A stretch of 64,000 nt of DNA from Thermoanaerobacteraceae bacterium (GTDB lineage: Bacteria > Bacillota > Thermoanaerobacteria > Thermoanaerobacterales > UBA4877): NCBI GenBank assembly GCA_030016635.1, contig JASEJQ010000004.1:12197-76196 (forward strand), given 5' to 3'. Each line of letters starts with the position of its first letter. The first letter of the stretch is position 1. Both the position numbers and the translations under genes were made by a program. Shown here one piece after another: positions 30,922-56,506 of the stretch. The notes under the pieces are model-generated. The model was not told the origin of the DNA, ran no database searches, and saw nothing but the letters and a program-made list of their open reading frames with translations.

Positions 30922-31013
30922 AAGGAAATTTTATAATTTTGTCGAATGTATACACTATAAAAAGATTTTAAGGCTTAAATTTTTTGTGTAACAAAATTTT
31001 GGAGGTAATAAGA

Positions 31014-32078: not shown

Positions 32079-32090
32079 AGGGTGGAATAT

Positions 32091-34071: not shown

Positions 34072-34113
34072 TATTCAGACCCAATGATGATTATACTGTA
34101 AGAAGTATAGGAA

Positions 34114-34320
34114 GAATGATAGCAAGCATCAAATGCAACCTTAAAGAGAGTTTATGATACTCTTGATAAGTGGCAAGTGGAGCCGGGGCATCTGGCATGG
34201 ACGCCAGGTGAGCCGACGCTGAGGCATGGACGCCGAATGGAGGCGTACCCGGCGGAAGGCAGCGACGAATCATTAGAATATCAGGACGAACGATCAGGTG
34301 CATGGATGCTGCTATCATTC
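34114..34320. repeat. Intergenic repeat element, copy D (same orientation as C)
   Basis: The core runs from GAATGATAG (34114) to CTATCATTC (34320). Outer similarity makes the whole element symmetrical from about 34089 (GATTATACTGTAAGAAG) to 34346 (inverse of GATTCTAATGTAAGAAG). Internal hairpin CTGGC-ATGGAC-GCCAG is at 34193-34208. It occupies most of the 317-bp gap between ptb and the second dehydrogenase. No gene is seen there. Confidence 0.87.
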
Positions 34321-34388
34321 GTAGAATGCCTTCTTACATTAGAATCAATACGGGTTTGATATAAATTTAAAATAGGGGGTATTTATAA

Positions 34389-35453
34389 ATGGAACTTTTC
34401 AGCTATATGCAAAAGTATGATTATGAGCAGGTGGTTTTCTGCCACGACAAGGCATCTGGTTTAAAGGCAATTATTGCTGTTCATGACACCACACTTGGCC
34501 CTGCACTGGGTGGATGCAGGATGTGGACCTATTCATGTGAAGATGATGCCATAATGGACGCCTTGAGGCTTGCCAGGGGTATGACATATAAGAATGCTGC
34601 TGCTGGTCTCAATCTCGGAGGTGCAAAGACAGTTGTCATAGGTGACCCAAAGAAGGATAAATCCGAGGCACTATTCAGAGCTCTTGGCAGATTCATACAG
34701 ACATTAAACGGCAGGTACATTACAGCCGAAGACGTGGGGACCAATGTAAGAGATATGGAGTACATCAGGATGGAGACCAAATATGTTGCAGGTCTTGGTG
34801 AAGGCAGTGGTGATCCATCTCCATTTACAGCATTGGGTGTGTTTCAGGGAATAAAAGCTGCCTGCAAAGAGGTATATGGAAGTGATGACCTTACCGGCAA
34901 GAAGGTTGCTATACAGGGTGTAGGAAATGTGGGATATAACCTTGCAAAGCTCTTAAAAGGAGCTGGAGCAGAGCTTATTGTAACAGATATTTTTGAAGAA
35001 AATGTGAGAAGGGCAGTTGAGGAATTGGGCGCAAAGGCTGTAAAAGCAGATGAAATATTCGGGGTAGAATGTGACGTATTTGCTCCATGTGCCCTGGGAG
35101 CTATAATAAATGATGACACTATAGACCAATTAAAATGTAAGATAGTTGGAGGGTCTGCCAACAACCAGCTCAAAGAGGATAGGCATGGCGACATACTGCA
35201 GCAAAGGGGCATCCTCTATGTCCCTGACTATATAATCAATGCTGGCGGCGTAATCAATGTTGCAGCAGAGTTTGAGCCGGGTGGATACAGAAAAGAGAAA
35301 GCCACAAGAAAAGTTGAAGCACTTTATGATGCTGTTATGGGGGTTATTGAGATTTCCAAGAAAGAGAATATACCGACATACAAAGCTGCTGATAGGCTTG
35401 TGGAGAACAGGATTAATGTTATAGCAGGTGTCAGAAATAATTATATAGGCTAA
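34389..35453 (+). CDS. Leucine/valine dehydrogenase, copy 2
   Basis: A 354-residue NAD-dependent dehydrogenase with the canonical leucine dehydrogenase active site: [20 protein letters not shown] (Lys68 and Lys80), [17 protein letters not shown], and Rossmann motif [17 protein letters not shown]. It should convert Leu, Ile and Val to their 2-oxo acids with NADH production. A GGGGG ribosome site precedes it. It heads the second module, followed by butyrate kinase 2 and the vor genes. Confidence 0.93.
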
Positions 35454-35532
35454 AAAGTTTTTTGATATAGAGTTTATTGTGATATAATATATTTGACAGC
35501 AGGGGATAGTCCAACTTAGAAAACTATAAACC

Positions 35533-35572
35533 ACATAGCAGGAATCCTATAACTTAGGTATTCCTGCTATGT
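35533..35572 (+). promoter_or_regulatory. Long hairpin upstream of butyrate kinase 2
   Basis: ACATAGCAGGAAT (35533-35545) pairs with ATTCCTGCTATGT (35560-35572), with an inner CCTA/TAGG pair. The following sequence CTTAATAC is not T-rich, so it is not a standard terminator. It may modulate expression between the dehydrogenase and the kinase. Confidence 0.55.
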
Positions 35573-35611
35573 CTTAATACATCCTATTTATAAAGAAAGG
35601 GGGGATAATGT

Positions 35612-36688
35612 TTGAATGACGTGTATACAATACTCACAATTAACCCAGGTTCCACATCGACAAAAATAGCTATTTTCCAGAATGAGAATCCGATTTTCAC
35701 TGAAACAGTAAGGCACAGCGCAGAAGAGTTATCGAAATATCCACATATCATTGACCAATATGAATTAAGACGGGATGCAATTTTAAAACTTCTGGGGGAT
35801 AAAGGTTATTCCATTTCTGACCTGGATGCCGTAGTGGGACGTGGCGGACTTCTAAAACCAATACCCAGCGGTACCTATCTCGTCAATGAGAGAATGATAG
35901 AAGACTTGAAAATCGGTGTACAGGGCGAGCACGCATCCAATCTTGGTGGTCTTATCGCCTATGAGATAGCGAGAAAAGTAAATATACCAGCCTATATAGT
36001 CGACCCAGTAGTGGTTGACGAATTGGATGACATAGCCAGGGTATCAGGAATGCCCGAGCTTCCCAAGGCAAGCATATTCCATGCCTTAAATCAAAAGGCT
36101 ATTGCCAGAAAAGCAGCTAAAAACATGGGAAAACGATATGAAGAACTGGACCTTATCATTGTTCACCTGGGTGGGGGCATTTCTGTAGGGGCTCATCATC
36201 ATGGAAGGGTAATAGATGTAAACAATGCCTTAAATGGTGAGGGACCGTTTTCGCCTGAGAGGACAGGCGGTCTGCCTGTAATGCAACTTGTGGATTTGTG
36301 TTATTCGGGTAAATATACTCAACATGAGATGGAAAAGAAGATAGTAGGCAAAGGCGGCTTGGTAGCGTACCTCGGTACGAATAATGCACAGGAAGTTCAT
36401 AAAATGGTGGAAGATGGAGATAAAAAAGCAAGGCTGGTTTATGAGGCAATGGCATATCAGGTAGCCAAGGAGATAGGGGCAATGGCAGCAGTGTTAAAAG
36501 GACATGTGGATGCCATAGTGTTTACGGGCGGCATAGCCTATGATGATATGTTTGTAAACTGGGTTACGGAGAGGGTTAAGTTTATAGCACTAACAATGAA
36601 ATATCCGGGAGAAGACGAACTGGCGGCTCTGGTACAGGGTGGCCTGAGGGTATTGAGAGGAGAAGAGAAAGATAAGGTCTACGAATAG
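35612..36688 (+). CDS. buk: Butyrate / branched-chain fatty acid kinase, copy 2
   Basis: A 358-residue kinase with the same motifs as copy 1 ([57 protein letters not shown]). It produces ATP from branched-chain acyl phosphates. A TTG start at 35612 follows GGGGGG by about seven bases; the nearby ATG at 35608 is out of frame and stops at once. There is no ptb beside it, so it would depend on the transacylase of module 1. Confidence 0.92.
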
Positions 36689-36705
36689 AACCGGAAGGTG
36701 ATTAA

Positions 36706-37377
36706 ATGAACTATAAAAGGCTCACAGTGATTACCGGCTATTTTGGAAGCGGTAAAACTGAGATTTCAATAAACTATGCAATCCAACTTAAAAAAACTGA
36801 GGATAAGGTTGCCCTAGTCGATCTGGATATAGTAAATCCCTATTTCAGGTCAAGAGAGCAGAGAGAGTTTTTGAGGAAAGACTATGGTATAAAGGTTGTG
36901 TGTACTGAGGAAGAGTACATGAATGCTGATATACCGGCCCTCTCTCCAGAGATTTATGGTGTACTCCAGGATAAGAACTGGAATACTGTGGTTGACCTGG
37001 GAGGGGATGATGTGGGTGCTACAGCCCTTGGCATGTTCAGTAAATATTTCAGAGACGAATCATATGAGATGATATTTGTGGTTAACATAAACAGGCCCTT
37101 CACATCAACAAAGGATGGTATTATCAGGCGAATTAAGGCCATAGAAAGGTCATCCAGGCTTAATGTTACTCATCTTGTCAACAATACTCATCTGAGCTAT
37201 GAGACCACGGTAGATGATGTATTAAAGGGACAGATGGTTACCGATGAGGTATCAAGGGAGACAGGTTTACCCATCAAGTTTATTTCTGGCAGGAGAGATA
37301 TACTGGAAAAGTTGCCAGAGGATATAGAGGCTGATCTTTTCCCAATAGATTTATTTATGAAACCACCATGGAGATAA
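36706..37377 (+). CDS. P-loop ATPase of the MinD/CobQ-like type, function unknown
   Basis: A 223-residue nucleotide-binding protein. The Walker A region is VITGYFGSGKTEISINYA (GxFGSGKT), followed by VALVDLDIVNPYFRSREQ, a deviant-Walker A-prime-like segment, and VVDLGGDDVGATALG. It ends in a basic PPWR. It is coupled between butyrate kinase 2 and the vor genes (16 bp from each neighbour), so it probably serves the 2-oxoacid oxidoreductase or its cluster assembly, but no precise role can be assigned from sequence. Confidence 0.7.
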   Translation: MNYKRLTVITGYFGSGKTEISINYAIQLKKTEDKVALVDLDIVNPYFRSREQREFLRKDYGIKVVCTEEEYMNADIPALSPEIYGVLQDKNWNTVVDLGGDDVGATALGMFSKYFRDESYEMIFVVNINRPFTSTKDGIIRRIKAIERSSRLNVTHLVNNTHLSYETTVDDVLKGQMVTDEVSRETGLPIKFISGRRDILEKLPEDIEADLFPIDLFMKPPWR

Positions 37378-37393
37378 AAGGAGGGATTTTCTA

Positions 37394-37615
37394 ATGGCTG
37401 CAAGAGGTAATGTTATTTTTGATAATGAACGTTGCAAGGGTTGTGAACTCTGTACTACAGTCTGCCCTGTTGGCATTATAGAGATGTCTTCAAGGTTGAA
37501 CAGCAGGGGTTATCATTTTTCTCAGGTTAAAGAGGGAATGATGGAAAAATGCATAGCGTGCGGATTCTGTGGTATGACGTGTCCGGATTTTGTTATCAAA
37601 GTGGAGAGATTGTAA
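37394..37615 (+). CDS. vorD: Ferredoxin-like delta subunit of 2-oxoacid:ferredoxin oxidoreductase
   Basis: A 73-residue protein with two [4Fe-4S] motifs: CKGCELCTTVCPVGI and CIACGFCGMTCPDFVI. It carries electrons from the thiamine-diphosphate subunit of the oxidoreductase to free ferredoxin. It is the first of four vor genes. Length and motif spacing are typical. Confidence 0.9.
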   Translation: MAARGNVIFDNERCKGCELCTTVCPVGIIEMSSRLNSRGYHFSQVKEGMMEKCIACGFCGMTCPDFVIKVERL

Positions 37616-37642
37616 ATTGTAAATACGGGAGGGAGAACTGAA

Positions 37643-38710
37643 ATGGCGAGGATTTTGATGAAAGGTAATGAAGCCCTTGGTGAAGCGGCCATCAAGGCCG
37701 GTGCGAAATTTTACTTTGGCTATCCAATAACACCTCAAAACGAGGTATCAGCATATATGGCAGAGAGACTTCCTGAGGTGGGCGGCGTGTTCTTGCAAGC
37801 GGAAAGTGAAGTATCAGCCATAAATATGGTATATGGTGCTGGCGGTGCTGGAGCCAGGGTGCTTATAACTTCCAGTAGTCCGGGTATCAGCCTTATGCAG
37901 GAGGGTATTTCATATATAGCAGGTGCTGAGATACCTGCGGTTATAGTCAATGTAATGAGAGGTGGGCCAGGCCTTGGTGGTATTCAACCCGGCCAGGCGG
38001 ACTATTTCCAGGCCACAAGAGGTGGCGGCCATGGGGACTACTTCATGGTAGTTTTAGCCCCTGAATCCATCCAGGAAATGGTTGACATAATGCAGGAGGC
38101 TTTTGACATAGCAGACCAGTACAGGAATCCTGTCATGATACTGGCGGATGGCATGATGGGTCAGATGATGGAGGCAGTGGACCTGGACAATGTAGAGAAG
38201 TCTGACAGGAATTTACCACCTAAGACATGGGCAACTACCGGGATGGCACATCATCAGGGCAAAAATATTATAAACTCTTTGGAGCTCGACCCTGCAAAAC
38301 TAGAGAAACATAACCTTGACCTGAAGAAAAAATATGATGAAATGGCAAAAAATGAAGTCAAATATGAAATGTATAAATGTGACGACGCTGATATTATAGC
38401 GGTTGCTTATGGTACAACAGCCAGGATAGTAAAGAATACTATTGATATGGCTTCTAGAGAAGGCATAAAGATGGGGTTGATAAGACCTATATCCTTATGG
38501 CCATTCCCACAGGAACCCTTTGACCGGACTGCAGATAGGGCAAAAGCATATATCTCTGTGGAGATGAGCATGGGACAAATGGTAGAGGATGTAAGACTGG
38601 CAGTAAACGGCAGAAAACCAGTGCACTTCTACGGCAGGACAGGAGGAATGATACCTGAGCCGAAGGATATACTGGCGGAAATAAAGAACATCTTGGGAGG
38701 TGTTAAGTAA
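37643..38710 (+). CDS. vorB: 2-ketoisovalerate-type:ferredoxin oxidoreductase, alpha subunit (VorB)
   Basis: A 355-residue subunit with the transketolase pyrimidine-binding-like domain and a C-terminal domain (MKGNEALGEAAIKAGAKFYF, GYPITPQNEVSAYMAERLPE, SEVSAINMVYGAGGAGARVL, TSSSPGISLMQEGISYIAGA, RPISLWPFPQEPF). It forms the CoA and 2-oxoacid site. In context its substrates are the 2-oxo acids of Leu, Ile and Val; 2-ketoglutarate is the alternative that sequence alone does not exclude. The stop overlaps the vorA ATG by one base. Confidence 0.9.
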   Translation: MARILMKGNEALGEAAIKAGAKFYFGYPITPQNEVSAYMAERLPEVGGVFLQAESEVSAINMVYGAGGAGARVLITSSSPGISLMQEGISYIAGAEIPAVIVNVMRGGPGLGGIQPGQADYFQATRGGGHGDYFMVVLAPESIQEMVDIMQEAFDIADQYRNPVMILADGMMGQMMEAVDLDNVEKSDRNLPPKTWATTGMAHHQGKNIINSLELDPAKLEKHNLDLKKKYDEMAKNEVKYEMYKCDDADIIAVAYGTTARIVKNTIDMASREGIKMGLIRPISLWPFPQEPFDRTADRAKAYISVEMSMGQMVEDVRLAVNGRKPVHFYGRTGGMIPEPKDILAEIKNILGGVK

Positions 38711-39459
38711 TGGCTAAAGTAATTTATGAAAAACCAAAAGGCATTACAGACGCTATAACTCACTACTGTCCAGGATGTACCCATGGTATAATACATGGAT
38801 TGGTGGCTGAGAGCCTTGAGGAACTGGGTGTACTGGGTGAGAGTATAGGCGTTGCACCTGTTGGATGTGCAGTCCTTGCATATAACTATTTTAACTGTGA
38901 TATGCAGGAGGCTGCCCATGGTAGGGCTCCGGCCGTTGCAACCGGTATAAAGAGGGTACTTCCGGACAGGACTGTCTTTACGTATCAGGGCGATGGCGAT
39001 CTTGCAGCCATAGGCACTGCAGAGATAGTACATGCAGCAGCCAGAGGGGAGAACATTACTGTTATATTTGTGAATAATGCCATCTATGGCATGACCGGAG
39101 GACAGATGGCCCCCACAACCCTTTTGGGTCAGGTGACCACAACCACTCCTTATGGGAGAAAGCCAGAGGCCAACGGATTTCCAATAAGGATATGCGAGAT
39201 GCTCTCAACCTTAGAAGGCGCAGCATACGTGGCGAGGGTATCTGTCCACGATATAAATAATATAAGGAAGGCCAAGAAGGCAATAAAAGAGGCATTTCAG
39301 ACCCAGATAGATAGAAAGGGATTCTCCATAGTGGAGGTCTTATCCACATGCCCAACCAACTGGGGTCTTACGCCGGCGGAGGCTATCAAATGGCTTAAAA
39401 ACAATATGATTCCACATTATCCTCTTGCAACCTTCAAATCTCCATGGGGGGTGAAATAA
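38710..39459 (+). CDS. vorA: 2-oxoacid:ferredoxin oxidoreductase, thiamine-diphosphate beta subunit (VorA)
   Basis: A 249-residue subunit carrying the TPP-binding site: YCPGCTHGIIHGLV at the N-terminus, then FTYQGDGDLAAIGTAEIVHA and NNAIYGMTGGQMAPTTLLGQ (GDGD...N Mg-TPP motif). It performs oxidative decarboxylation. Its stop TAA overlaps the vorC ATG. Full length for the family. Confidence 0.92.
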   Translation: MAKVIYEKPKGITDAITHYCPGCTHGIIHGLVAESLEELGVLGESIGVAPVGCAVLAYNYFNCDMQEAAHGRAPAVATGIKRVLPDRTVFTYQGDGDLAAIGTAEIVHAAARGENITVIFVNNAIYGMTGGQMAPTTLLGQVTTTTPYGRKPEANGFPIRICEMLSTLEGAAYVARVSVHDINNIRKAKKAIKEAFQTQIDRKGFSIVEVLSTCPTNWGLTPAEAIKWLKNNMIPHYPLATFKSPWGVK

Positions 39460-40010
39460 TGGAAGAGAGAGTAATAATGGCTGGATTTGGCGGCCAGGGT
39501 CTTATGACCATAGGCCAGCTTTTGGCCTATGCGGGTCTTGAAGAAGACAAGAATGTTTCCTGGATGCCGTCCTATGGACCGGAGCAGAGGGGTGGCACAG
39601 CCAACTGCCATGTAATAGTGTCTGATGGCCCTGTCGGCTCACCGGTTATTTCAGAAGCTACCGGTGTCATTGTGATGAACAGGCCATCTCTTGAAAAGTT
39701 TGAAAGTTACCTTATACAAGGTGGGGTGCTGGTAATTGATTCTACTCTGATAGATGTTAAAGCATCAAGGACAGATGTCGAGGCTATTTATGTGCCTGCA
39801 GATGAAATGGCCAATGAGATGGGAAATTCCAAAATGGCCAATATGATAATGTTGGGTGCATATGTACAAAAAACAGGTGTTGTAAAGTTAGAATCCCTCT
39901 TTAATGCACTACGGCATGTATGGGGAAATACTGCTAAGGAAAGGTTTGTAGAGCCAAACATCGAGGCCATTAAAAAAGGTGCCGGGCTTATAGGTGAATT
40001 AGTAAAGTAG
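39459..40010 (+). CDS. vorC: 2-oxoacid:ferredoxin oxidoreductase, gamma subunit (VorC)
   Basis: A 183-residue subunit of the oxidoreductase (ERVIMAGFGGQGLMTIGQLL; SYGPEQRGGTANCHVIVSD; NMIMLGAYVQKTGVV). ATG 39459 follows GGGGGTGA and overlaps the vorA stop (TAATG). The in-frame ATG at 39444 lies within vorA upstream of that site. Completes the DBAC gene order. Confidence 0.92.
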   Translation: MEERVIMAGFGGQGLMTIGQLLAYAGLEEDKNVSWMPSYGPEQRGGTANCHVIVSDGPVGSPVISEATGVIVMNRPSLEKFESYLIQGGVLVIDSTLIDVKASRTDVEAIYVPADEMANEMGNSKMANMIMLGAYVQKTGVVKLESLFNALRHVWGNTAKERFVEPNIEAIKKGAGLIGELVK

Positions 40011-40355: not shown

Positions 40356-41033
40356 TTGGACTCAATATTTAAACCGATAGGTCAGGAGATCTTTAAACCT
40401 GTAAGAGACATAGTCTTTGAGGAGTTAAGGAACGCCATATTTAAAGGGGAGTTAAAACCTAACCAGAGGCTTATTGAAGAAGATATAGCAAAGCAGATGG
40501 GCATATCTAGGACACCTGTAAGAGAGGCCCTGAGGATGTTGGAGAATGAAGGACTTGTTGTGCATGTACCAAGGAAAGGGGTACTGGTTACAGGTTTCTC
40601 TAACGAGGATATTGATGAGATTTACAGGATAAGGGGGGTTTTGGAGGGCCTGGCCGCGAGCCTTGCTGTTGATCATATAACACTTAAAGAGCTAACTGAG
40701 TTGGAGGTTATTTTAAGAAAGATGAAAATACTTATTGATGAGGATAGATTTAATGAGCTCATGGATTTACACAACAGGTTCAACTATGTGCTCATAAGAG
40801 CCAGTAGAAGTCCAAGGTTATGCAGTATGATTGATACCATGCAAGAGTACCTGGAGAAGACAAGAATGATATCACTCTCGTCTAAGGAGAGGCAGGTCAA
40901 GGCACATGAAGAGCATGAGGCTATAGTAAATGCAATAAAGTCAAAGGACAAATTAATGACAGAAAAGCTGGTAAGGGAGCATACTGAAAAAGCGAGAGAA
41001 GCGTATTTTCAATATGTAAAATTTAAAAAATAG
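40356..41033 (+). CDS. GntR/FadR-family transcriptional regulator of the tricarboxylate operon
   Basis: A 225-residue repressor-type protein. The N-terminal winged helix (about 20-85) reads RDIVFEELRNAIFKGELKPN, QRLIEEDIAKQMGISRTPVR and EALRMLENEGLV. The C-terminal FCD ligand domain contains the metal-binding pattern LMDLHNRFNYVLIRASRSP and KAHEEHEAIVNAI. FCD-type regulators commonly sense carboxylates. The TTG start at 40356 lies eight bases after AGGAGGT. It sits directly upstream of citD with a 19-bp palindrome in the gap, so it most likely controls the whole operon. Confidence 0.92.
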   Translation: MDSIFKPIGQEIFKPVRDIVFEELRNAIFKGELKPNQRLIEEDIAKQMGISRTPVREALRMLENEGLVVHVPRKGVLVTGFSNEDIDEIYRIRGVLEGLAASLAVDHITLKELTELEVILRKMKILIDEDRFNELMDLHNRFNYVLIRASRSPRLCSMIDTMQEYLEKTRMISLSSKERQVKAHEEHEAIVNAIKSKDKLMTEKLVREHTEKAREAYFQYVKFKK

Positions 41034-41048
41034 TTTTTATTAAACAAA

Positions 41049-41067
41049 ATTGTATCCAGGATACAAT
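41049..41067 (+). promoter_or_regulatory. Putative GntR operator upstream of citD
   Basis: ATTGTATCCAGGATACAAT is a perfect 19-bp palindrome lying between the gntR stop and the citD start. Its form suits a dimeric FadR-subfamily GntR repressor. Related half-sites precede the gntR gene. Confidence 0.75.
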
Positions 41068-41104: not shown

Positions 41105-41380
41105 TTGAAAAGAAGTGTGGCTGGTACAGAAGAAAAAAATGACGTTCTTGTTGAGCTGGTTCCATTGGGTAAGGGAGATGGAACGAGGATAGAAATAATA
41201 AGTCCTGTGAAAAAGCAGTTTGGTAGGCTTATAGAAGAATCTGTAAGGGATGTATTAAATAGGCGTGGCGTAGATGATGTACAGGTTATTGTAAAAGATA
41301 ATAAGGCTCTTGACTTTGCTTTAAGGGCCAGGCTGGAAGCAGCTATAGACAGGGCTGGGGGTGAACACTTTGCGTCTTAG
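41105..41380 (+). CDS. citD: CitD-like protein lacking the prosthetic-group serine
   Basis: A 91-residue homologue of the citrate lyase acyl carrier subunit (gamma). The scaffold is clear: AGT near the start, SPVKKQFGRLIEESVRDVL and KDNKALDFALRARLEAAIDRA. Canonical CitD proteins read AGTLESSD or AGTLESGD, where the first Ser (Ser14) carries the phosphoribosyl-dephospho-CoA group. Here the segment is AGTEEKND, so that Ser is Lys11 and no Ser is nearby. TTG 41105 is the start that aligns with the family; an ATG at 41066 lies inside the operator. The protein cannot be a conventional acyl carrier. It may be structural, or the lyase may use free CoA esters. Confidence 0.85.
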   Translation: MKRSVAGTEEKNDVLVELVPLGKGDGTRIEIISPVKKQFGRLIEESVRDVLNRRGVDDVQVIVKDNKALDFALRARLEAAIDRAGGEHFAS

Positions 41381-42260
41381 GAGAACGCTTTTATATGTTC
41401 CGGGAAACAGTCCCAGTATGATTCAGGACTGTATGATATATGGTGCGGATACCGTGCTTTTGGATCTAGAGGATTCAGTGGCTATTTATGAAAAGGATGC
41501 TGCCAGATATCTGGTAAGGTATGCTCTGCAAAGTCTTGATTTTAGAGATACCGAACTTGCAGTCAGGATAAATAGTATGGACACACCTTTCTGGTATGAT
41601 GACCTAAAGATGGTAGTCCCGGCAGGTGTGGATATTATCAGGTTGCCAAAGGCAGAGACATCAGAAGATATTAAAAGATTGGATGAGGCAATTTCAGAAA
41701 TAGAGAAGAATAATGCCATAGAATGCGGCAAGGTAAGGATAATGGTATCTATTGAAAGCGCAAAAGGCCTTATAAATGCCTATGACATTGCTACAGCAAG
41801 CCCTCGTATGGTGGCTATAGCCATTGGCGGAGAGGACTTTACAGCCGACCTTAGAGTAAAAAAGACAAGAGAGGGAAGAGAACTATTTGTAGCCAGGAGT
41901 GAACTGGTTATTGCAGCCAGGGCAGCCGGGATTGATGCCATTGACTCAGTATTTTCTGATGTCAATGATGAAGAAGGACTTAAAAAAGAGACTGAAATGG
42001 CAAAAGAATTGGGGTTTGATGGTAAATCAGTAATAAATCCAAGACAGATACCAGTAATACATGAGGTGTTTACCCCTACAAAGGAAGAGATAGATGAGGC
42101 TATAAGGATAAATAATGCGATAAAAGAGGCTGAGGCTAAAGGCTCAGGGGTCATATCACTGGATGGGAAAATGGTGGATAGGCCTATAGTTAAGAGAGCA
42201 GAGAGGGTATTAAAATTGGTTGAACTCCTGGGGCTTAATGAGGAGGAGAGGATATGCTGA
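41370..42260 (+). CDS. citE: Citrate lyase beta subunit-like (CitE), citryl/malyl thioester lyase
   Basis: A 296-residue TIM-barrel lyase of the CitE/HpcH family (LRRTLLYVPGNSPSMIQDCM; GADTVLLDLEDSVAIYEKDA; VRIMVSIESAKGLINAYDI; AIAIGGEDFTADLRVKKT). The catalytic Glu (IES) and the Asp that binds Mg (GGEDF) are present. It cleaves a citryl thioester to an acetyl thioester and oxaloacetate. A TTG at 41370 gives the typical MRLRRT start and sits six bases after GGGGGTGA; GTG 41361 is an alternative. It overlaps citD and citF. Confidence 0.9.
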   Translation: MRLRRTLLYVPGNSPSMIQDCMIYGADTVLLDLEDSVAIYEKDAARYLVRYALQSLDFRDTELAVRINSMDTPFWYDDLKMVVPAGVDIIRLPKAETSEDIKRLDEAISEIEKNNAIECGKVRIMVSIESAKGLINAYDIATASPRMVAIAIGGEDFTADLRVKKTREGRELFVARSELVIAARAAGIDAIDSVFSDVNDEEGLKKETEMAKELGFDGKSVINPRQIPVIHEVFTPTKEEIDEAIRINNAIKEAEAKGSGVISLDGKMVDRPIVKRAERVLKLVELLGLNEEERIC

Positions 42261-43777
42261 ATGCTATAAACAGAGAGATACCGGAGGGATTTGGAGTTCC
42301 CTATAGCGGTGATATGATTGAGCCTGGGGGAAGGGCTGTAGGGCATCTGGTAAAATCGGTCAGGCCCCACGAGGATAAGGTCTTGAAAAGTTTAAAGGAT
42401 GCTATCATAGCAAGCGGACTTAAGGACGGCATGACCATATCATTTCACCATCATTTCAGAGAAGGCGATTATATTTTGAATATGGTCCTCGAGGCTATTG
42501 ATGAACTTGGAATAAAAAATTTAAAACTTGCACCCAGTTCATTGAACTCCTGCCATGAACCGGTGGTGGACTATATAAAAAAGGGGGTCATCACATCTAT
42601 AGAGACCAGTGGTCTCAGGGGCAGACTTGCAGTGGAAATATCTAAGGGAATACTGGGAAAACCTGTAATCATACGTTCACACGGTGGTAGGCCAAGAGCA
42701 ATAGAGTCAGATGAGCTTCATATAGATGTGGCCTTTATTGGGGCACCATGTGCAGATAAATATGGAAACCTTAATGGGGTATATGGATCTTCAGCATGTG
42801 GTGCATTGGGATATGCTATGGTAGATGCCAGGTATGCGGACTGCGTTATAGCCATAACCGATAACCTTATGGATTACCCTATTGAACCCATAAGTATACC
42901 ATCCACACTGATTGATTATGTGGTGTGTGTAGATTCTATAGGAAATCCTGAGGGAATAATGTCGGGAGCAACCCGATTTACCCGAAGCCCAAAAGAACTA
43001 TTGATTGCGGAATATGCCAGCAAGGTCATTATCAACTCTGGACTTTTTAAAGATGGGTTTTCGCTTCAGATGGGGTCTGGCGGGGCCTCCCTGGCTGTTG
43101 CAAGGTACTTGAGTAAAGTAATGAGGGAAAAGAATATAAAGGCCAGTTATGGTTTAGGTGGAATAACGGGGCCCTTTGTAGATATGCTGGAAGAGGGTCT
43201 GGTCGAAAAGCTTTTAGATGTTCAATGTTTTGACCTTAAGGCTGTGGAATCTATAAGGGATGATAAAAGGCATATGGAGATAGACGCCTCATATTATGCT
43301 AACCCATTTAATAAAGGGTGTGCCGTAAATAACTTAGATGTTGTTATTTTAAGTGCGTTGGAAGTGGATACAGATTTTAATGTTAATGTAATGACCGGTT
43401 CTGACGGAATCATAATGGGTGCTTCAGGCGGTCACTCTGATGCAGCCTATGGAGCTAAGTTAACAATTATAACCACTCCACTCATAAGGGGGAGACTGCC
43501 TATAGTTGTAGATAAAGTGCAGACTGTAATAACACCTGGAAGCAGTATAGATGTTGTAGTGACAGAAAGGGGAATAGCTGTCAATCCCAAAAATAAGGAA
43601 CTGATGGACAGACTCAAGGAGGCCAGGCTCCCATTATACAGCATCGAGGAATTAAAGCATATGGCAGAAAAAATGACAGGCAGACCTGATGAGGTGATGT
43701 TTGGAGATAAGGTTGTTGGAGTAGTGCAGTACAGGGATGGCTCGATAATTGATGTTATTAGAAATGTGGTTGATTAG
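42254..43777 (+). CDS. citF: Citrate lyase alpha subunit-like (CitF), acyl transferase
   Basis: A 507-residue CoA-transferase-superfamily protein, full length for CitF. Characteristic segments are EPGGRAVGHLVKSVRPHEDK, TISFHHHFREGDYILNMVLE, CHEPVVDYIKKGVITSIETS and GSDGIIMGASGGHSDAAYGA. In standard citrate lyase it exchanges acetate for citrate on the acyl carrier protein. With the carrier serine missing here, it might act directly on CoA thioesters; that is inference. It overlaps citE by seven bases. No citC, citX or citG gene is present in the operon or window. Confidence 0.9.
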   Translation: MLNAINREIPEGFGVPYSGDMIEPGGRAVGHLVKSVRPHEDKVLKSLKDAIIASGLKDGMTISFHHHFREGDYILNMVLEAIDELGIKNLKLAPSSLNSCHEPVVDYIKKGVITSIETSGLRGRLAVEISKGILGKPVIIRSHGGRPRAIESDELHIDVAFIGAPCADKYGNLNGVYGSSACGALGYAMVDARYADCVIAITDNLMDYPIEPISIPSTLIDYVVCVDSIGNPEGIMSGATRFTRSPKELLIAEYASKVIINSGLFKDGFSLQMGSGGASLAVARYLSKVMREKNIKASYGLGGITGPFVDMLEEGLVEKLLDVQCFDLKAVESIRDDKRHMEIDASYYANPFNKGCAVNNLDVVILSALEVDTDFNVNVMTGSDGIIMGASGGHSDAAYGAKLTIITTPLIRGRLPIVVDKVQTVITPGSSIDVVVTERGIAVNPKNKELMDRLKEARLPLYSIEELKHMAEKMTGRPDEVMFGDKVVGVVQYRDGSIIDVIRNVVD

Positions 43778-43788
43778 GAGGTAAAATA

Positions 43789-45696
43789 ATGGGCCTAACT
43801 CTTTTTAAAAAGATTATATCGACTCATCTTGCCGAGGGAGAAATGATAAGTGGTAGTGAGATAGGCGTAAGGATAGATCAGACACTTACTCAGGATGCCA
43901 CAGGAACAATGGCCTATTTGGAGTTCGAGGCCATGGGCATCCCAAGGGTTAAGACAGAGCTATCTGTAAGCTATGTAGACCACAACACCCTTCAGACAGG
44001 TTTTGAAAACGCTGATGACCATAGATTTTTGCAGGATATAGCGGCAAAGTATGGCCTTGTTTTTTCAAGACCGGGAAACGGTATCTGCCATCAGGTACAC
44101 CTTGAGAGGTTTGGCGTACCAGGGAAGACACTCTTGGGCTCTGACAGCCACACACCTACCGGTGGAGGCATCGGTATGGTTGCCATAGGCGCAGGTGGGC
44201 TGGATGTAGCCTTAGCCATGGCAGGCAAGCCTTTTCATATGATAATGCCTGAAATTATAAAGGTAAACCTCATTGGTAGGTTAATACCTATGGTAAGTGC
44301 CAAGGATATCATACTGGAGCTTTTAAGGAGATTGAGTGTAAAGGACGGAGTAAATAGGGTCTTTGAATATGCAGGTGATGGAGTAAAAACACTATCAATC
44401 CCTGAGAGGGCTACTATAACCAATATGGGTGCAGAGCTTGGGGCTACCACATCGATTTTCCCCAGTGATGAGGTCACATATGAGTTTTTAAAGGCTCAGG
44501 GGAGAGAAAGGGATTTTGTTGAACTCCAGGCTGATGATGACGCTCTATATGATGGTGTAATTGAAATAAACCTATCTTCACTGGAGCCTCTTGTGGCAAA
44601 ACCTCACAGTCCGGACAATGTGGTAAGGGTAAAGGATATAGAGGGATTGAAGATAGACCAGGTGTTCATAGGCAGTTGTACCAATTCATCTTTGAGAGAC
44701 CTTATGATGGTTGCTGAGATTTTGAAGGGAAAAACTATTGCCCCTAATGTAAGTCTTAGTATTGCACCAGGTTCAAAGCAGGTCTATGAGATGATTGCGG
44801 AAAATGGTACCTTGAAGAAACTGGTAGCTTCTGGCGCCAGGATGCTGGAATCAGCATGCGGGCCGTGTGTTGGTATGGGCCAGGTCCCGCCCTCCGGCGG
44901 CATATCCTTAAGGACGTCCAACAGAAATTTTGAAGGCAGGAGTGGCACAAAAGATGCTCAGGTTTATCTTGTAAGTGCCGAGACAGCAGCAGTATCAGCG
45001 ATTAAAGGAGTCCTTACAGATCCAAGAGTATTGAATGAGAGGATAGAGATAAGACTTCCACAGAAATTTAATATAAATGACAACATGATAATTCTTCCCC
45101 CTCCTGAAGGCACTCAGGCAGAGGTCAGAAGAGGACCAAACATCAAGCCTCTGCCTGAGTTTAAGCCACTGCCCGATGAAATAGAGGGTGAGGTTTTGAT
45201 AAAGGTAGGAGATAACATAACTACTGACCATATAATGCCTGCAGGTGCAAAGGTGTTGCCCTATAGGTCGAATCTTCCTAAGATATCTGAGTTTGTATTT
45301 GAAAGGGTTGACCCTACATTTGCAGGAAGGGCGCAACAAAAGGGCGGCGGGTTTATAGTAGGTGGTGCCAACTATGGCCAGGGCTCCAGCAGAGAACATG
45401 CAGCATTGGCCCCGTACTATCTGGGTATAAGGGTAGTCATAGCAAAGTCCTTCGCAAGGATTCACAGACAAAATCTTATAAACTTTGGGATACTTCCCCT
45501 GATTTTTGATGATGAGAAAGACTACGAGGATATAGAGCAGGGAGATATTTTAAGAGCTGTTAATTTAATAAGTCAACTGGATAATGAGATAATCAGCATT
45601 GAAAATGTCTCTAAAGGCAGGACTTACAAGTTGAGACATGACCTTTCAGATAGACAGATACAGATGGTCAAGAAGGGAGGTGCATTAAAATATTAG
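43789..45696 (+). CDS. acn: Aconitate hydratase (monomeric, about 635 residues)
   Basis: A 635-residue aconitase-superfamily [4Fe-4S] hydro-lyase interconverting citrate, cis-aconitate and isocitrate. Cluster ligands are seen in FIGSCTNSSLRDLMM and ESACGPCVGMGQVPPSGG. The swivel domain includes DNITTDHIMPAGAKVLPYRS, NYGQGSSREHAALAPYYLG and a late FARIHRQNLINFGILPL. It is the shorter type common in anaerobic Firmicutes. Homoaconitase or methylaconitate hydratase activity is an alternative. It is cotranscribed with citDEF and followed by a relic of isocitrate dehydrogenase. Confidence 0.92.
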   Translation: MGLTLFKKIISTHLAEGEMISGSEIGVRIDQTLTQDATGTMAYLEFEAMGIPRVKTELSVSYVDHNTLQTGFENADDHRFLQDIAAKYGLVFSRPGNGICHQVHLERFGVPGKTLLGSDSHTPTGGGIGMVAIGAGGLDVALAMAGKPFHMIMPEIIKVNLIGRLIPMVSAKDIILELLRRLSVKDGVNRVFEYAGDGVKTLSIPERATITNMGAELGATTSIFPSDEVTYEFLKAQGRERDFVELQADDDALYDGVIEINLSSLEPLVAKPHSPDNVVRVKDIEGLKIDQVFIGSCTNSSLRDLMMVAEILKGKTIAPNVSLSIAPGSKQVYEMIAENGTLKKLVASGARMLESACGPCVGMGQVPPSGGISLRTSNRNFEGRSGTKDAQVYLVSAETAAVSAIKGVLTDPRVLNERIEIRLPQKFNINDNMIILPPPEGTQAEVRRGPNIKPLPEFKPLPDEIEGEVLIKVGDNITTDHIMPAGAKVLPYRSNLPKISEFVFERVDPTFAGRAQQKGGGFIVGGANYGQGSSREHAALAPYYLGIRVVIAKSFARIHRQNLINFGILPLIFDDEKDYEDIEQGDILRAVNLISQLDNEIISIENVSKGRTYKLRHDLSDRQIQMVKKGGALKY

Positions 45697-45708: not shown

Positions 45709-45822
45709 GAGGTACTTAAAGAAGGCAAGAAGGTAACATATGATATTGGCGGGAGTGCCTCTACAGTAGAAATGGCAGAAGAGATTGCAAAGAGGGTAAT
45801 TAATTATGAGTCAGAAGATTAA
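45709..45822 (+). pseudogene. icd: 3' relic of an NAD-isocitrate dehydrogenase gene
   Basis: An open frame without start codon reads EVLKEGKKVTYDIGGSAST and continues VEMAEEIAKRVINYESED before TAA at 45820-45822. This is the C-terminal tail of the isocitrate/isopropylmalate dehydrogenase family (KEGK-VTYD-GG-A-T-EMA). A stop codon lies just upstream at 45706-45708. Only about 37 codons remain, so the rest was deleted. The next gene starts inside it in another frame. The tail is intact enough to suggest a fairly recent loss. Confidence 0.75.
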
Positions 45823-46672
45823 GGCGTTAAGGCAATTACTGAAGGATAGAGAGATCATTATAGTGCCGGGAGCATCTACTGCTCTATTAGCCAGGATAAT
45901 TGAAGATATAGGGTTTGATGCAGTCTATGCTACCGGGGCAGGAATATCTAATATGAATTTTGGCTTTCCAGATGTAGGCCTCACGACAATGAATGAGATA
46001 CTCGAGGCATGTAAGAGGATAAACGATGCTGTAAATCTGCCAGTTATAGCAGATATAGATAATGGCTATGGCAATCCATTGAATGTTTACCGGACAGTTA
46101 AAGAATTTTCAAGGGCAGGCATGGCCGCCATACAGATAGAAGACCAGGTTTCACCTAAGCGGTGTGGCCACTTTGAAGGCAAGGATGTTATATCACCTGA
46201 GGAAATGGTTTATAAGATTAAGGCAGCTAGAGATGCAGGCAACGATGTCGTGATAATAGCAAGGACTGATTCCATCGCAGTAAATGGGTTCGAGGATGCC
46301 ATAGAAAGGGCAGGGTTATATGCAGAAAATGGTGCTGATATGATTTTTGTTGAAGCACCCCGTAATATAGAAGAACTGAGGAAAATACCAGAGAATATTA
46401 CTGTACCATGCGTAGCCAATATGGTGGAAGGTGGTAAAACGCCAATAATTTCAGCTGATGAACTAAGCCATATGGGTTACAAGATGGTTATATATGCAAA
46501 CCTATCATTACGGGCAGCGGTAAAAGCAGCCCACGATGCACTTCTGGTATTAAAAGAGGAAGGCTCATCCACATATGTAATGAATAAGATCATTACTATG
46601 GATGAAAGGAATATGATAACAAAATTACATGAGGTTGTGAGAATTGAAAGGAGGTATGGTATAAGGGAATAA
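45806..46672 (+). CDS. Isocitrate lyase/PEP mutase superfamily lyase (PrpB-like)
   Basis: A 288-residue TIM-barrel lyase. The N-terminal IIIVPGASTALLARIIEDIG, the substrate-binding YATGAGISNMNFGFPDVGL, the metal site PVIADIDNGYGNP and the catalytic loop SPKRCGHFEGK (K-R-C-G-H, required for C-C lyases) are all present. Candidate reactions are cleavage of 2-methylisocitrate, isocitrate or 2,3-dimethylmalate; oxaloacetate decarboxylation is less likely with KRCGH. Next to aconitase and a tricarboxylate importer, an isocitrate-type substrate is favoured. ATG 45806 lies inside the icd relic. Confidence 0.82.
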   Translation: MSQKIKALRQLLKDREIIIVPGASTALLARIIEDIGFDAVYATGAGISNMNFGFPDVGLTTMNEILEACKRINDAVNLPVIADIDNGYGNPLNVYRTVKEFSRAGMAAIQIEDQVSPKRCGHFEGKDVISPEEMVYKIKAARDAGNDVVIIARTDSIAVNGFEDAIERAGLYAENGADMIFVEAPRNIEELRKIPENITVPCVANMVEGGKTPIISADELSHMGYKMVIYANLSLRAAVKAAHDALLVLKEEGSSTYVMNKIITMDERNMITKLHEVVRIERRYGIRE

Positions 46673-46719: not shown

Positions 46720-47760
46720 ATGTCAAACCTTAAAAAAGTACTTTTGGTTTTGCTTAGTGTATTGCTTGTACTTTCTTTGACAGCATGTGGTTCTGGGAGC
46801 TCAAATCAGCAACCACAACAGGGTTCATCTCAGCAGCAGGATTCTGAGAAGACATGGAAGCCAGAGTCCACAGTGGAGATCGTGGCGCCAGCCAATCCAG
46901 GCGGTGGATGGGACCTCCTTTCAAGGAATATTCAGAGCGTTGTTACAGAACAAAAACTGGTTGATCAACCGATAATCATCACCAATAAACCGGGCGGAGG
47001 GGGAGCAGTAGGTTGGACTTATCTCAAAGGTAAAAAAGGGAATGGCAGTGTATTGGCTGTCAACTCCAGCCTGATACTTTTGAACAATCTCCTCGGCAGC
47101 AGTGAACTTTCGTACAAAGATTTTACACCGCTGGCAAATCTGACGACTGAGTGGGAGGTTGTAGCGGTAGCCAAGGATTCACCTTATACGACCGGTAAAG
47201 AACTCTTAGATGCATTGAAGGCAGATCCTTCCAAGTTATCAATAGGTGTTGGACCAACACTGGGTAATGATGACCACATACAGTTCTTACAGATATGCAA
47301 AGCCTATGGGATAGATGTATCAAAGCTTAATTTTATTGTTTATCCGGGTGCCGGTGGGGAAGAGATAACCAACCTTCTCGGCCATCACATAGACCTTATA
47401 ACCATTTCAATGGCGGAGACTTTGGAACAATATAGGGCAGGTAATCTCAGGATACTTGGTGTATCATCTCCTGAGAGGGTACCAGAGTTGCAGGATGTTC
47501 CAACCTGGAAGGAGCAGGGAATAGATGTAGTGTTTGCTCACTGGAGAGGCATAATGGGGCCACCTGATATGACACCTGAGCAGGTTAAATACTGGAGCGA
47601 TGTGTTTGCTAAAATGGTCCAGTCTGACAAATGGAAAGAGCTCTTAAAGAATCAGGGACAGTATGACTACTATATGCCTGCCGATGAGTATACTAAATTC
47701 TTAGATGATCAGAACAATACTTTCTCTTCACTTCTAAAGGAAGTTGGGCTGACAAAATAG
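46720..47760 (+). CDS. tctC: Tripartite tricarboxylate transporter, substrate-binding lipoprotein
   Basis: A 346-residue TctC/Bug-family solute-binding protein. It has a lipoprotein signal peptide (lipobox LTAC, Cys23), a Ser/Gln-rich linker, then the family motif VEIVAPANPGGGWDLLSRNI and ITNKPGGGGAVGWTYLKGKK. It binds a di- or tricarboxylate outside the cell for the TctAB permease. A GC-rich hairpin follows its stop codon. Ligand is unknown; the operon suggests citrate, aconitate or a methylated analogue. Confidence 0.92.
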   Translation: MSNLKKVLLVLLSVLLVLSLTACGSGSSNQQPQQGSSQQQDSEKTWKPESTVEIVAPANPGGGWDLLSRNIQSVVTEQKLVDQPIIITNKPGGGGAVGWTYLKGKKGNGSVLAVNSSLILLNNLLGSSELSYKDFTPLANLTTEWEVVAVAKDSPYTTGKELLDALKADPSKLSIGVGPTLGNDDHIQFLQICKAYGIDVSKLNFIVYPGAGGEEITNLLGHHIDLITISMAETLEQYRAGNLRILGVSSPERVPELQDVPTWKEQGIDVVFAHWRGIMGPPDMTPEQVKYWSDVFAKMVQSDKWKELLKNQGQYDYYMPADEYTKFLDDQNNTFSSLLKEVGLTK

Positions 47761-47805: not shown

Positions 47806-48273
47806 ATGACAAAGGATCTGATTTCAGGTTTAGTTTCACTTATTCTGGGGATAGGTTATTTATTATACACATTCCTTCTCCCAAAAATAAACATAAGCGA
47901 TCCAGTTGGACCATACCTGTTTCCAGAACTAATTGGTATTGGAGCAGTAATATGCGGCATTATCTTGATATATCTGGATTTGAAAAAGACAAATAGAATA
48001 AAAATATCTGCTTATGAAATTTTTGGTGGCAAAGATGTGACATATAGAATTATACTTACTACTGTTGCAGGGCTTATCTATGGCGTTATATTGGATCCCA
48101 TTGGCTATATAATCTCAACAGTTGTATTTATGATGATGGTAATGTCAATTATAAATGGCCTGAATAGAATATTAGAAAATGTTGGTATATCTATAGCTTT
48201 TTCTGTAATAACATATCTATTCTTTGGCACATTCTTAAAATTAAGCATACCACGCGGCATATTCTGGTTTTAG
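47806..48273 (+). CDS. tctB: Tripartite tricarboxylate transporter, small membrane subunit
   Basis: A 155-residue protein with four hydrophobic segments (LISGLVSLILGIGYLLYTF; YLFPELIGIGAVICGIILIY; IILTTVAGLIYGVILDPIGY; ISIAFSVITYLFFGTFL), ending in IPRGIFWF, which is typical of TctB. It works with TctA and TctC for sodium-dependent uptake. A GGAGGGC site precedes ATG 47806. Confidence 0.9.
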   Translation: MTKDLISGLVSLILGIGYLLYTFLLPKINISDPVGPYLFPELIGIGAVICGIILIYLDLKKTNRIKISAYEIFGGKDVTYRIILTTVAGLIYGVILDPIGYIISTVVFMMMVMSIINGLNRILENVGISIAFSVITYLFFGTFLKLSIPRGIFWF

Positions 48274-48283
48274 GAGGTAGACT

Positions 48284-49789
48284 ATGGGAGATATTTTCAG
48301 TAACCTTGCATATGGTTTACAAACTGCACTAACATTTAATAATATATTATGGGTGGTTATAGGTGGTTTACTTGGGACTATTGTCGGGATGTTGCCAGGT
48401 CTTGGGCCTGCAACAGGCATAGCTGTGCTTTTACCAATAATATTTGGGATGAACCCGTCCACAGCAATGATAACAATGGCCGCTATATATTATGGCGCAA
48501 TGTTTGGCGGCTCTAGGGCGTCCATAATGATAAATACCCCGGGAGATGCCTCGGCCATAGCCACATGCTTTGATGGTTATCCAATGACAAAAAACGGAGA
48601 GGGTGGAAAGGCCCTGGCCATGTCAGCCATCGCTTCATTTGTTGGGGGATTGATAGCGACCGTGTTGATGATATTTCTAACTCAACCCATAGCCGGCCTT
48701 GCCCTGGATTTTGGACCTGCAGAGATGTTTTCTATACTTTTATTTGCTTTAACAGCGACCGTAACACTTTCACAGGGGAATATATTGAAGGGATTTGTCT
48801 CAATATTTACAGGCTTTATGCTGAGCACGATTGGCATTGATTCTCAGACCGGATTGTTGAGGTTTACCTTTGGACTGGTGGAATTACAGGAAGGTATTGA
48901 ATTTTTGGTTGTGATGATAGGAATGTATGCCATAGCTGAGGTATACAAGAACTATAATAATATAAATACGAAATATGATTTTGACAGTAAATTCATAGGT
49001 AGTATCTGGATTTCAAAGGAAGAATTCAAGAAATGTCTGCCAGCCATGTTAAGAAGTACACCACTTGGTTTTGTTATTGGTGCACTGCCTGGTCTTGGCG
49101 GTTCTGTAGCGGCCTTGACAGCATATGCCATTGAAAAACAGTCAAATAAACATCCTGAAAGATTTGGCAAAGGTGCTATAGAAGGTGTGGCGGCGCCAGA
49201 AGCTGCTAATAATGCAGCATCTACGGGAGCTTTGATACCAATGCTTACACTGGGTATACCAGGATCTGCTACTACTGCTGTTATGGTTGGGGCTCTAATG
49301 ATGATAGGTGTCAAACCAGGGCCGCTGCTATTTACTGAACACCCTGATGTGGCATGGGGAGTAATAGCCTCTATGCTAATAGGTAATGTAATATTGATAA
49401 TTATAAATCTGCCACTTGTTGTTCCTTTGGTTCAACTACTAAGGATACCGCAGAGGATATTGCTGCCACTTATTTTAGGACTTGGTTTTATGGGTGCATA
49501 TTTCTTAAGCTATAGTTCCTTTGACTTCATACTTCTGGTCATTTTTGGATTTTTAGGCTATTTGATGTCTAAACTTGATATACCAGTTGCACCATTGGTA
49601 CTGGCGCTGATTCTTGGAAGCGATACAGAGCAATATTTTAGAAGGGCAATGGGAATTTCCCACGGCAGCCTGAGTATATTCTTTACAAAACCTATATCGT
49701 TGGTGTTTTTAATATTGGCTGTTGTTTCATTTATTTACTCCATAAGAAGGGAGCAGAGTCTCAAGAAAAATATGCAGGAAGGTGCTTAA
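48284..49789 (+). CDS. tctA: Tripartite tricarboxylate transporter, large permease subunit
   Basis: A 501-residue membrane protein with about twelve hydrophobic segments. TctA signatures are GTIVGMLPGLGPATGIAVLL, MFGGSRASIMINTPGDASAI, VIGALPGLGGSVAALTAYA and MLTLGIPGSATTAVMVGALM. It forms the translocation pore. The stop codon overlaps the ribosome-binding region of the following prpF-family gene. Confidence 0.94.
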   Translation: MGDIFSNLAYGLQTALTFNNILWVVIGGLLGTIVGMLPGLGPATGIAVLLPIIFGMNPSTAMITMAAIYYGAMFGGSRASIMINTPGDASAIATCFDGYPMTKNGEGGKALAMSAIASFVGGLIATVLMIFLTQPIAGLALDFGPAEMFSILLFALTATVTLSQGNILKGFVSIFTGFMLSTIGIDSQTGLLRFTFGLVELQEGIEFLVVMIGMYAIAEVYKNYNNINTKYDFDSKFIGSIWISKEEFKKCLPAMLRSTPLGFVIGALPGLGGSVAALTAYAIEKQSNKHPERFGKGAIEGVAAPEAANNAASTGALIPMLTLGIPGSATTAVMVGALMMIGVKPGPLLFTEHPDVAWGVIASMLIGNVILIIINLPLVVPLVQLLRIPQRILLPLILGLGFMGAYFLSYSSFDFILLVIFGFLGYLMSKLDIPVAPLVLALILGSDTEQYFRRAMGISHGSLSIFFTKPISLVFLILAVVSFIYSIRREQSLKKNMQEGA

Positions 49790-49790
49790 G

Positions 49791-50864
49791 GTGCAGTATA
49801 AGATAAAGAGTGTTTTAATGCGCGGCGGTACAAGCAGGGCGCTGTTTTTTAAACGAGAGGACCTACCTGATGATCCGGAATTGCAAAAGAAGATTTTTAT
49901 TTCAGCTATTGGTACCCCTGACCCAAAACAGATAGACGGAGTTGGGGGTACCACATCATCAACCAGTAAGATAGCGATTATAGAAAAGTCGACCAGGCCG
50001 GGCATTGACATAGATTACACTTTTGTCCAGGTTGGTGTAACAGAGCCGATAATAGATATAAATGGAAACTGTGGCAACATATCATCAGCAGTAGGTCCTT
50101 ATGCGGTAGATGAAGGACTGGTTATAGCTAAAGAGCCATATACTGAAGTTAAAATATATAATACAAACACCAACAAATTATTTACATCTTCTTTTAAAGT
50201 TAAGAATGGAAGATTTGCCCCTGAAGGAAACTTTTCTATACCGGGTCTGATACAAAATGGGTCAGAAATAAGATTAACTTTCTATAATCCAGAGGGCAGT
50301 ATAACAGGTAAAATATTTCCAACAGACAAAACCATTGATCGTATTGTAGTTGAGAGAAAAGAATATCAGATTACTTTGATAGATATTACTAATCCGTATA
50401 TATTTATGGACATGGGAAATATTGGGTTTAATGGCATTGAATCAACGGATTTCATTGACGGTAGCTCTGGACTTAAGGTATTGCAACTTATCAGGGACTC
50501 TGTTTCAGAAAGGATCGGCCTTAATTCCAAGGCATTTCCTAAAATAATGATGATTAAAAAAAATGAAGAGAAATCGGAGATAATTACAAGGACAATCTCC
50601 ATGGGTAAAACTCATAAAACCATACCATTGACAGGCGCTATGTGTCTGGCTGCAGCTACCGGTATCCCTGGGACACTCCCAAATATGATCGCAGGAATAG
50701 AATTTACGGAGGGATATAAAGAATTTAATATTGGATATCCTGGAGGGACCACTAAGATAGGAGTCGAATTTGCATACGATAATAATAATTATACTATAAA
50801 GAGCATAACATGCAGTAGAACGGCAAGAAGAATAATGGAAGGCTTTGTCTATGCAACTATATAG
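49791..50864 (+). CDS. prpF: PrpF-family isomerase (methylaconitate/aconitate isomerase-like)
   Basis: A 357-residue protein of the PrpF/diaminopimelate epimerase-fold family: MQYKIKSVLMRGGTSRALFF, GVGGTTSSTSKIAIIEKS, DINGNCGNISSAVGPYAVDE and PYIFMDMGNIGFNG. Family members shift the double bond or geometry of substituted aconitates (2-methyl-cis-aconitate, trans-aconitate, oxalomesaconate). GTG 49791 gives the standard start and lies six bases after AGGAAGGTG; the earlier GTG at 49782 overlaps tctA. With an importer and aconitase it would turn an incoming aconitate isomer into one aconitase accepts; the exact substrate is inference. Confidence 0.85.
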   Translation: MQYKIKSVLMRGGTSRALFFKREDLPDDPELQKKIFISAIGTPDPKQIDGVGGTTSSTSKIAIIEKSTRPGIDIDYTFVQVGVTEPIIDINGNCGNISSAVGPYAVDEGLVIAKEPYTEVKIYNTNTNKLFTSSFKVKNGRFAPEGNFSIPGLIQNGSEIRLTFYNPEGSITGKIFPTDKTIDRIVVERKEYQITLIDITNPYIFMDMGNIGFNGIESTDFIDGSSGLKVLQLIRDSVSERIGLNSKAFPKIMMIKKNEEKSEIITRTISMGKTHKTIPLTGAMCLAAATGIPGTLPNMIAGIEFTEGYKEFNIGYPGGTTKIGVEFAYDNNNYTIKSITCSRTARRIMEGFVYATI

Positions 50865-50955: not shown

Positions 50956-51438
50956 ATGACTGTCACTCTGGCCATGATAGGTGGTTTTATTGGTAATGAA
51001 CTTAAGATTCCTGCTGGGGCATTACTCGGGGCTATGGTGGCTGTGGGTGCGGCTAACCTATTAAACTTAGAGCCGGATATGCCTGGCTCATTTAACACCA
51101 TAGCCCAGATTATTATTGGTGGATTTCTGGGATTGTCATTAACTAAAGAGGTTGTACTGGGACTGAAGGATTATCTCATTCCTTCACTTATGGTTGTTGT
51201 ACTCCTGGCCATATTTGGCGTCATAACTGGAGTTATTGTGACTAAGCTGACCGGTGTGGAGCTTTTCACTTCACTCTTTGGTAGTGTACCCGGCGGCATG
51301 CAGGAGATGATCATCCTTTCAGAGTCCTATGATGTGAACCATCCTGCCGTGGTTGTTATACAGACAGTGAGGAGGATTTTAATTGTTATAATATATCCAT
51401 TGCTGGTGAATATAATCCTGAAGTATGTTAAGGGTTAA
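50956..51438 (+). CDS. AbrB-type membrane protein (putative transporter family)
   Basis: A 160-residue, very hydrophobic protein with about five membrane segments (AMIGGFIGNELKIPAGALLG; ATM-like repeats; FGSVPGGMQEMIILSESYDV). The motif GSVPGGMQEM is characteristic of the AbrB/PF05145 membrane family, sometimes labelled ammonia monooxygenase. Many members contain two such halves; this has one. It follows the tct and prpF genes and may be an auxiliary carboxylate transporter. Substrate unknown. Confidence 0.75.
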   Translation: MTVTLAMIGGFIGNELKIPAGALLGAMVAVGAANLLNLEPDMPGSFNTIAQIIIGGFLGLSLTKEVVLGLKDYLIPSLMVVVLLAIFGVITGVIVTKLTGVELFTSLFGSVPGGMQEMIILSESYDVNHPAVVVIQTVRRILIVIIYPLLVNIILKYVKG

Positions 51439-54693: not shown

Positions 54694-54751
54694 CTGAAAT
54701 AATTTGTAGAGTATGTCAAATCAATAAACCTTTAGGAGAGTGAGAAATAAT

Positions 54752-56494: not shown

Positions 56495-56506
56495 GAGGGC
56501 TGTAGT

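Follow-up and report, generated by a model that had tools for sequence, protein, structure and literature searches.

The window, a stretch of 64,000 nucleotides from the genome of a Thermoanaerobacteraceae bacterium, carries an unbroken citD-citE-citF set (41105-43777), which forms the front part of a longer unit extending from the gene of a GntR/FCD-family regulator (40356) to that of an AbrB-like membrane protein (51438) and larger than stated in the preliminary description (Table 1). Judging from its gene families, the unit most likely serves to import a tricarboxylate and to interconvert aconitate, isocitrate and citrate ahead of cleavage. The inverted repeat between the regulator gene and citD is a candidate operator of the citDEF operon, putatively bound by GntR; no second copy of this palindrome was found within the window, and none in L113, a related locus of another genome.

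Elsewhere in the window, the regions 30984-40010 and 53788-57085 were dense in genes of branched-chain/2-oxoacid fermentation, as read by eye from ORF translations, with two Leu/Glu-dehydrogenase-like, two butyrate-kinase-like and phosphate butyryltransferase-like genes and those for ferredoxin oxidoreductase subunits. It should also be added that a sodium:solute symporter-like gene (61003-62233) appeared split between two overlapping frames, 61003-61767 and 61706-62233, by a frameshift or an assembly error.

Table 1. Features of the citDEF unit in the window and the evidence for their assignment.
Feature	Coordinates	Strand	Evidence
GntR/FCD-family regulator	40356..41033	+	PF00392 and PF07729; equivalent site upstream of the operon in L113
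Perfect 9-bp inverted repeat, ATTGTATCC-A-GGATACAAT, one-base spacer	41049..41067	.	Between gntR and citD
CitD, Lys-type citrate lyase gamma subunit	41105..41380	+	AGTEEKND; TIGR01608, PF06857; AlphaFold model with MdcC fold
CitE, citryl thioester lyase (beta) subunit	41361..42260	+	TIGR01588, 415 bits, below cut-off of 443.4
CitF, acyl/CoA transferase (alpha) subunit	42254..43777	+	TIGR01584, 780 bits, cut-off 501.45; relatives 2hj0, 1xr4
Aconitase (PRK07229 type)	43789..45696	+	NF005558, 999.7 bits, cut-off 612
Isocitrate-lyase/PEP-mutase family lyase, methylisocitrate lyase-like	45806..46672	+	Below prpB cut-off
TctC-like tricarboxylate-binding protein	46720..47760	+	PF03401
TctB-like small membrane subunit	47806..48273	+	PF07331
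TctA-like permease	48284..49789	+	Sequence and position; 73% identity to L113 counterpart; no NCBIfam match
PrpF-family isomerase, candidate trans-/cis-aconitate isomerase	49782..50864	+	PF04303; below prpF and OMA_tautomer cut-offs
AbrB-duplication membrane protein, final gene of the unit	50956..51438	+	TIGR03082; L113 has a similar protein, by eye, in the corresponding position

Attachment residue of CitD and its distribution

Citrate lyase normally requires CitD, its small carrier subunit, to bear a phosphoribosyl-dephospho-CoA cofactor on a serine, and this arm, together with three helper genes, is regarded as indispensable for the bacterial enzyme. The CitD of the window reads AGTEEKND in place of the canonical AGTLESSD, and the codon of the attachment position (41135-41137) is AAA, which confirms the lysine reported there in the preliminary description. 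The protein passed the citD model TIGR01608 (72.6 bits, cut-off 63.5) and PF06857 (76.3 bits, cut-off 25.1), and the CitD orthologue in L113, 67-72% identical, carries the same Lys, so that a frameshift or misreading at this site can be discounted. CitF passed its model. That CitE missed the cut-off of TIGR01588 counts against its being a citrate lyase subunit, although this cut-off discriminates poorly, since the CitE of the genome's canonical operon scored lower still (232 bits) and failed as well. CitE did not pass the RipC_Ccl model either (182 bits, cut-off 375), and it is encoded alongside CitD and CitF. A sequence search of the PDB returned no CitD.

Every CitD read had Ser (81) or Lys (28 distinct loci) as its attachment residue, and no third residue turned up across 110 citDEF triples; the Lys-type motif is AG[TF][DEN]EK[NQ]D. 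When 80 loci were fetched by similarity to the CitF of the window, with CitD not used as a criterion, the 78 readable CitDs comprised 76 of Ser type and two of Lys type, both from Megasphaera. We further screened 398 genomes of the phylum and 381 of the class Negativicutes with a degenerate DNA pattern that encodes the Lys motif; as the pattern demands Lys, it gives the spread of the Lys type and not the frequency of other Ser replacements. Three of the phylum genomes (G290, G224 and G456) were positive, as were 27 of the 381 Negativicutes after removal of chance hits, and 23 of these 27 belonged to a single genus of roughly 2-Mb genomes, probably Veillonella to judge from their size, GC content and position beside Megasphaera; a full citDEF locus was read in 20 of them, and the other three are counted by the motif. 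Altogether the same Lys was read in at least 26 genomes. Pattern matches in G494, G395, G576, G579 and G839 proved to be unrelated proteins, and behind those in G319, G513 and G515 a CitD reading was sought and none found. No plasmid with Lys-type citDEF genes was detected at megablast level, and no description of a serine-less CitD was found in the open-licence literature.

The operon of G456 has the gene content of the window unit with an additional IDH gene and a changed order, and sits on a 3.40-Mb contig, close to the whole listed genome size. A Megasphaera MAG (G102) was found to possess three citDEF sets (L098, L099 and L100); one is of Ser type and accompanied by citC and a citXG fusion, the others are of Lys type.

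The genes of the Lys type are under purifying selection, with dN/dS, where measurable, mostly between 0.02 and 0.14; for CitD pairs with unsaturated synonymous sites it was about 0.06-0.14, one fast pair reaching 0.36. Lys-type CitE keeps 34 of the 35 positions invariant in Ser-type CitE and CitF all 86 of 86, and the catalytic residues of both subunits are retained, as read from the alignments. Over D, E and F together, the Lys is the sole residue common to both Lys lineages and missing from the Ser types; CitD also varies at a second site, 9 of the 15 Lys rows having another residue in place of the Gly of DKGALD. Decay of the operon, with the Lys as a loss-of-function mutation, would account for the loss of an essential attachment residue; nevertheless, the recurrence of the same Lys in so many genomes, the purifying selection, the intact frames and the preserved catalytic residues make this explanation hardly credible.

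Accessory genes and evolutionary history

Neither the operon nor the window contains citC, citG or citX, as had been stated. Another contig of the same genome, C70, nevertheless carries genes for a sensor pair and a citS-like transporter together with citD, citE, citF, citC, malic enzyme, citX and citG, with a CitD of Ser type (AGTLESSD). In this canonical operon (L003:3039-10650) the malic enzyme gene sits between citC and citX. A second, canonical citD had been named in the preliminary description as a finding that would refute it, and one, along with citC, citX and citG, lies on C70. Its inference that the lyase belongs to a genome devoid of the machinery is therefore wrong for this organism, because C70 holds the complete canonical operon; what stands is that a serine-less group with genomes free of citC, citG and citX is real.

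Within about 8 kb, citC, citX or citG accompanied 59 of 71 Ser loci and none of 26 Lys loci, these rows not being independent. Absence from the flanks alone means little, because Ser-type operons of Sporomusaceae and relatives (L016, L018, L028, L030-L032, L035 and L037) also lack all three genes over that distance. Six genomes were searched with a profile (A1) that joins CitC, CitX, CitG and CitD; G000 and G102, both with canonical operons, were positive for all parts. In G101 (Megasphaera paucivorans), G224, G290 and G456 the profile revealed no citC, citX or citG and CitDs of Lys type only, two of them in G290; weak CitC-like matches in Lys-only genomes were, by eye, short proteins resembling CoaD or GNAT enzymes. 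Neither CitX nor CitG was found by Pfam search in G101. The chromosome of G860, a member of the probable Veillonella genus with a GC content of 38.5%, was searched piecewise with our own profiles (2,116,915 bases, of which 15 kb masked, a small gap in the absence result) and gave no CitX or CitG at E < 10. It has one CitD, with Lys, and one CitF, and for CitC just a short CoaD-sized match and weaker ones. As a positive control, the same profiles recovered the held-out canonical locus L098.

The presence of the window-type operon in G456 without citC, citX and citG argues that it does not need this machinery. The genome of the window itself could be a different case: the use of canonical holo-CitD in trans is possible there, since the full canonical machinery is present, and this counts against the reading that we prefer. 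The corresponding alternative, in which CitE and CitF of the window borrow the holo-CitD of C70, and their own CitD is an accessory with a regulatory or structural role, draws on the complete operon with its Ser-type CitD; we consider it improbable, as G456 has the same operon and no other CitD, and there is no donor CitD in G101, G224, G290 or G860 either.

The Lys rows formed two groups in the CitF tree, one of the window and G456 and another of Negativicutes beside Ser-types of Sporomusaceae. A single Lys clade was rejected for CitF (AU p 0.0007); CitE gave the same topology without rejection of one clade (p 0.20), and CitD, with 82 columns, was uninformative (p 0.51). Since the CitF tree rejects one origin, the swap from Ser to Lys probably occurred twice, and two origins of the Lys type appear likely from these sequences; transfer of citD alone is possible. 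The serine-less clade predicted to co-occur with the loss of citC, citG and citX was recovered in as far as five Lys-only genomes were found, and is probably two lineages instead of one. A more far-reaching scenario, offered tentatively and with some doubt, is that the covalent arm was shed at least twice independently through the same change from Ser to Lys, that citrate lyase thereby became an enzyme of diffusible CoA, that the Lys of the former carrier docks CoA non-covalently and that the cofactor pathway was lost thereafter.

Proposed mechanism and its alternatives

In the AlphaFold model of CitD (pLDDT 92), the residue in question, Lys11, sits in the loop joining strands one and two. Among the matches listed, the best TM-score was to MdcC, the carrier of malonate decarboxylase (5vit_C; TM 0.76, rmsd 1.8, 19% identity), the Foldseek top matches to EF-G having been discounted because of low target coverage and rmsd of mostly 4-6. 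In MdcC the attachment Ser lies at the loop tip, about 10 Å from the ribose of a modelled CoA; the protein bridges subunits, and MdcD-MdcE acts on malonyl-CoA (PMC5534430). The predicted fold of the Lys-type CitD is alike, with the attachment residue in an exposed loop, whereas MdcC carries its arm on Ser25.

Free CoA thioesters are the substrates of the characterised stand-alone relatives of CitE (PMC3832036). Malyl-CoA lyase, CLYBL and RipC/Ccl share the fold family of CitE, and the use of free CoA thioesters is what we propose for Lys-type CitE; unlike it, they act without CitD, and by model scores it is far nearer to CitE, with 415 bits, than to RipC_Ccl, with 182. The isolated subunits of canonical citrate lyase, as reported by Dimroth and Eggerer in 1975, are said to act on CoA esters.

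We infer that Lys-type CitDEF is probably a citrate lyase without the covalent phosphoribosyl-dephospho-CoA arm, using free CoA thioesters. CitF would transfer CoA from acetyl-CoA to citrate, yielding citryl-CoA and acetate, and CitE would cleave citryl-CoA to oxaloacetate and acetyl-CoA, the latter returning to CitF, so that acetyl-CoA would be catalytic. In the window, TctCBA would provide uptake, and PrpF and aconitase would interconvert aconitate, isocitrate and citrate for the lyase. With the arm dropped, citX and citG, which serve its synthesis and attachment, and citC, which serves its acetylation, would be unnecessary. CitD would be retained as a bridging subunit; the earlier suggestion that it is merely reduced to a structural one does not hold, since the replacement is always Lys. 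As a guess from geometry, this Lys may contact a phosphate of bound CoA.

The constancy of the Lys and its place in a loop between strands could also indicate another covalent arm, lipoyl or biotinyl, for such a position is reminiscent of biotinyl and lipoyl domains. The EK[NQ]D context, however, differs from those known for biotin (MKM) and lipoyl (DK[AV]), and G860 gave no match to lipoate ligase, a weak argument in view of the approximate E. coli LplA query; we regard this arm as highly improbable.

Less easily dismissed, albeit unlikely, is an enzyme which uses free CoA and whose natural substrate or direction, at least in Negativicutes, is not citrate cleavage, such as one acting on citramalate or another 2-hydroxyacid, or in net synthesis. 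According to a review, veillonellae metabolise neither citrate nor isocitrate (PMC8757872), which would mean another substrate there or a role in co-metabolism; in V. dispar, citrate lyase is among the genes that change in a transcriptome study (PMC10100942). The transporters encoded next to the Lys-type operons examined belong to citrate or dicarboxylate families, in favour of the reading as a citrate lyase; their wide variation (2HCT, CitMHS, DcuC, Na_sulph_symp) speaks for another substrate. Against it stand the aconitase and tricarboxylate transporters in the operon of the window lineage, and the conservation of every invariant position in CitF. G860 furthermore showed no E. coli-type citrate synthase (by an approximate gltA query, hence weak) and only leuCDB-like aconitase/IDH homologues, which also disfavours a route from citrate to 2-oxoglutarate in that genome.

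Under NCBI models, most proteins of the Lys type are named citrate lyase acyl carrier protein, and the known arm is impossible on that residue; annotations of citrate use in Lys-type bacteria may therefore mislead, because the named carriers cannot hold it. If the free-CoA reading is true, these operons show the reversion of a carrier-protein enzyme to free CoA and represent a simple three-gene citrate lyase for which no maturation genes are needed.

With the ATP-independent citrate lyase CitDEF (EC 4.1.3.6) the Lys type shares the three subunits, the gene order, the CitF and CitD models and the catalytic positions of CitE and CitF; it differs in that the prosthetic-group serine is always replaced by Lys and that citC, citX and citG lie outside its operon and are absent from the Lys-only genomes searched. 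The passage from aconitate through citrate to oxaloacetate proposed for the window is likewise that of trans-aconitate and citrate fermentation by Acidaminococcus fermentans, for which a table in the genome paper gives citrate lyase alpha, beta and gamma subunits only (PMC3035267).
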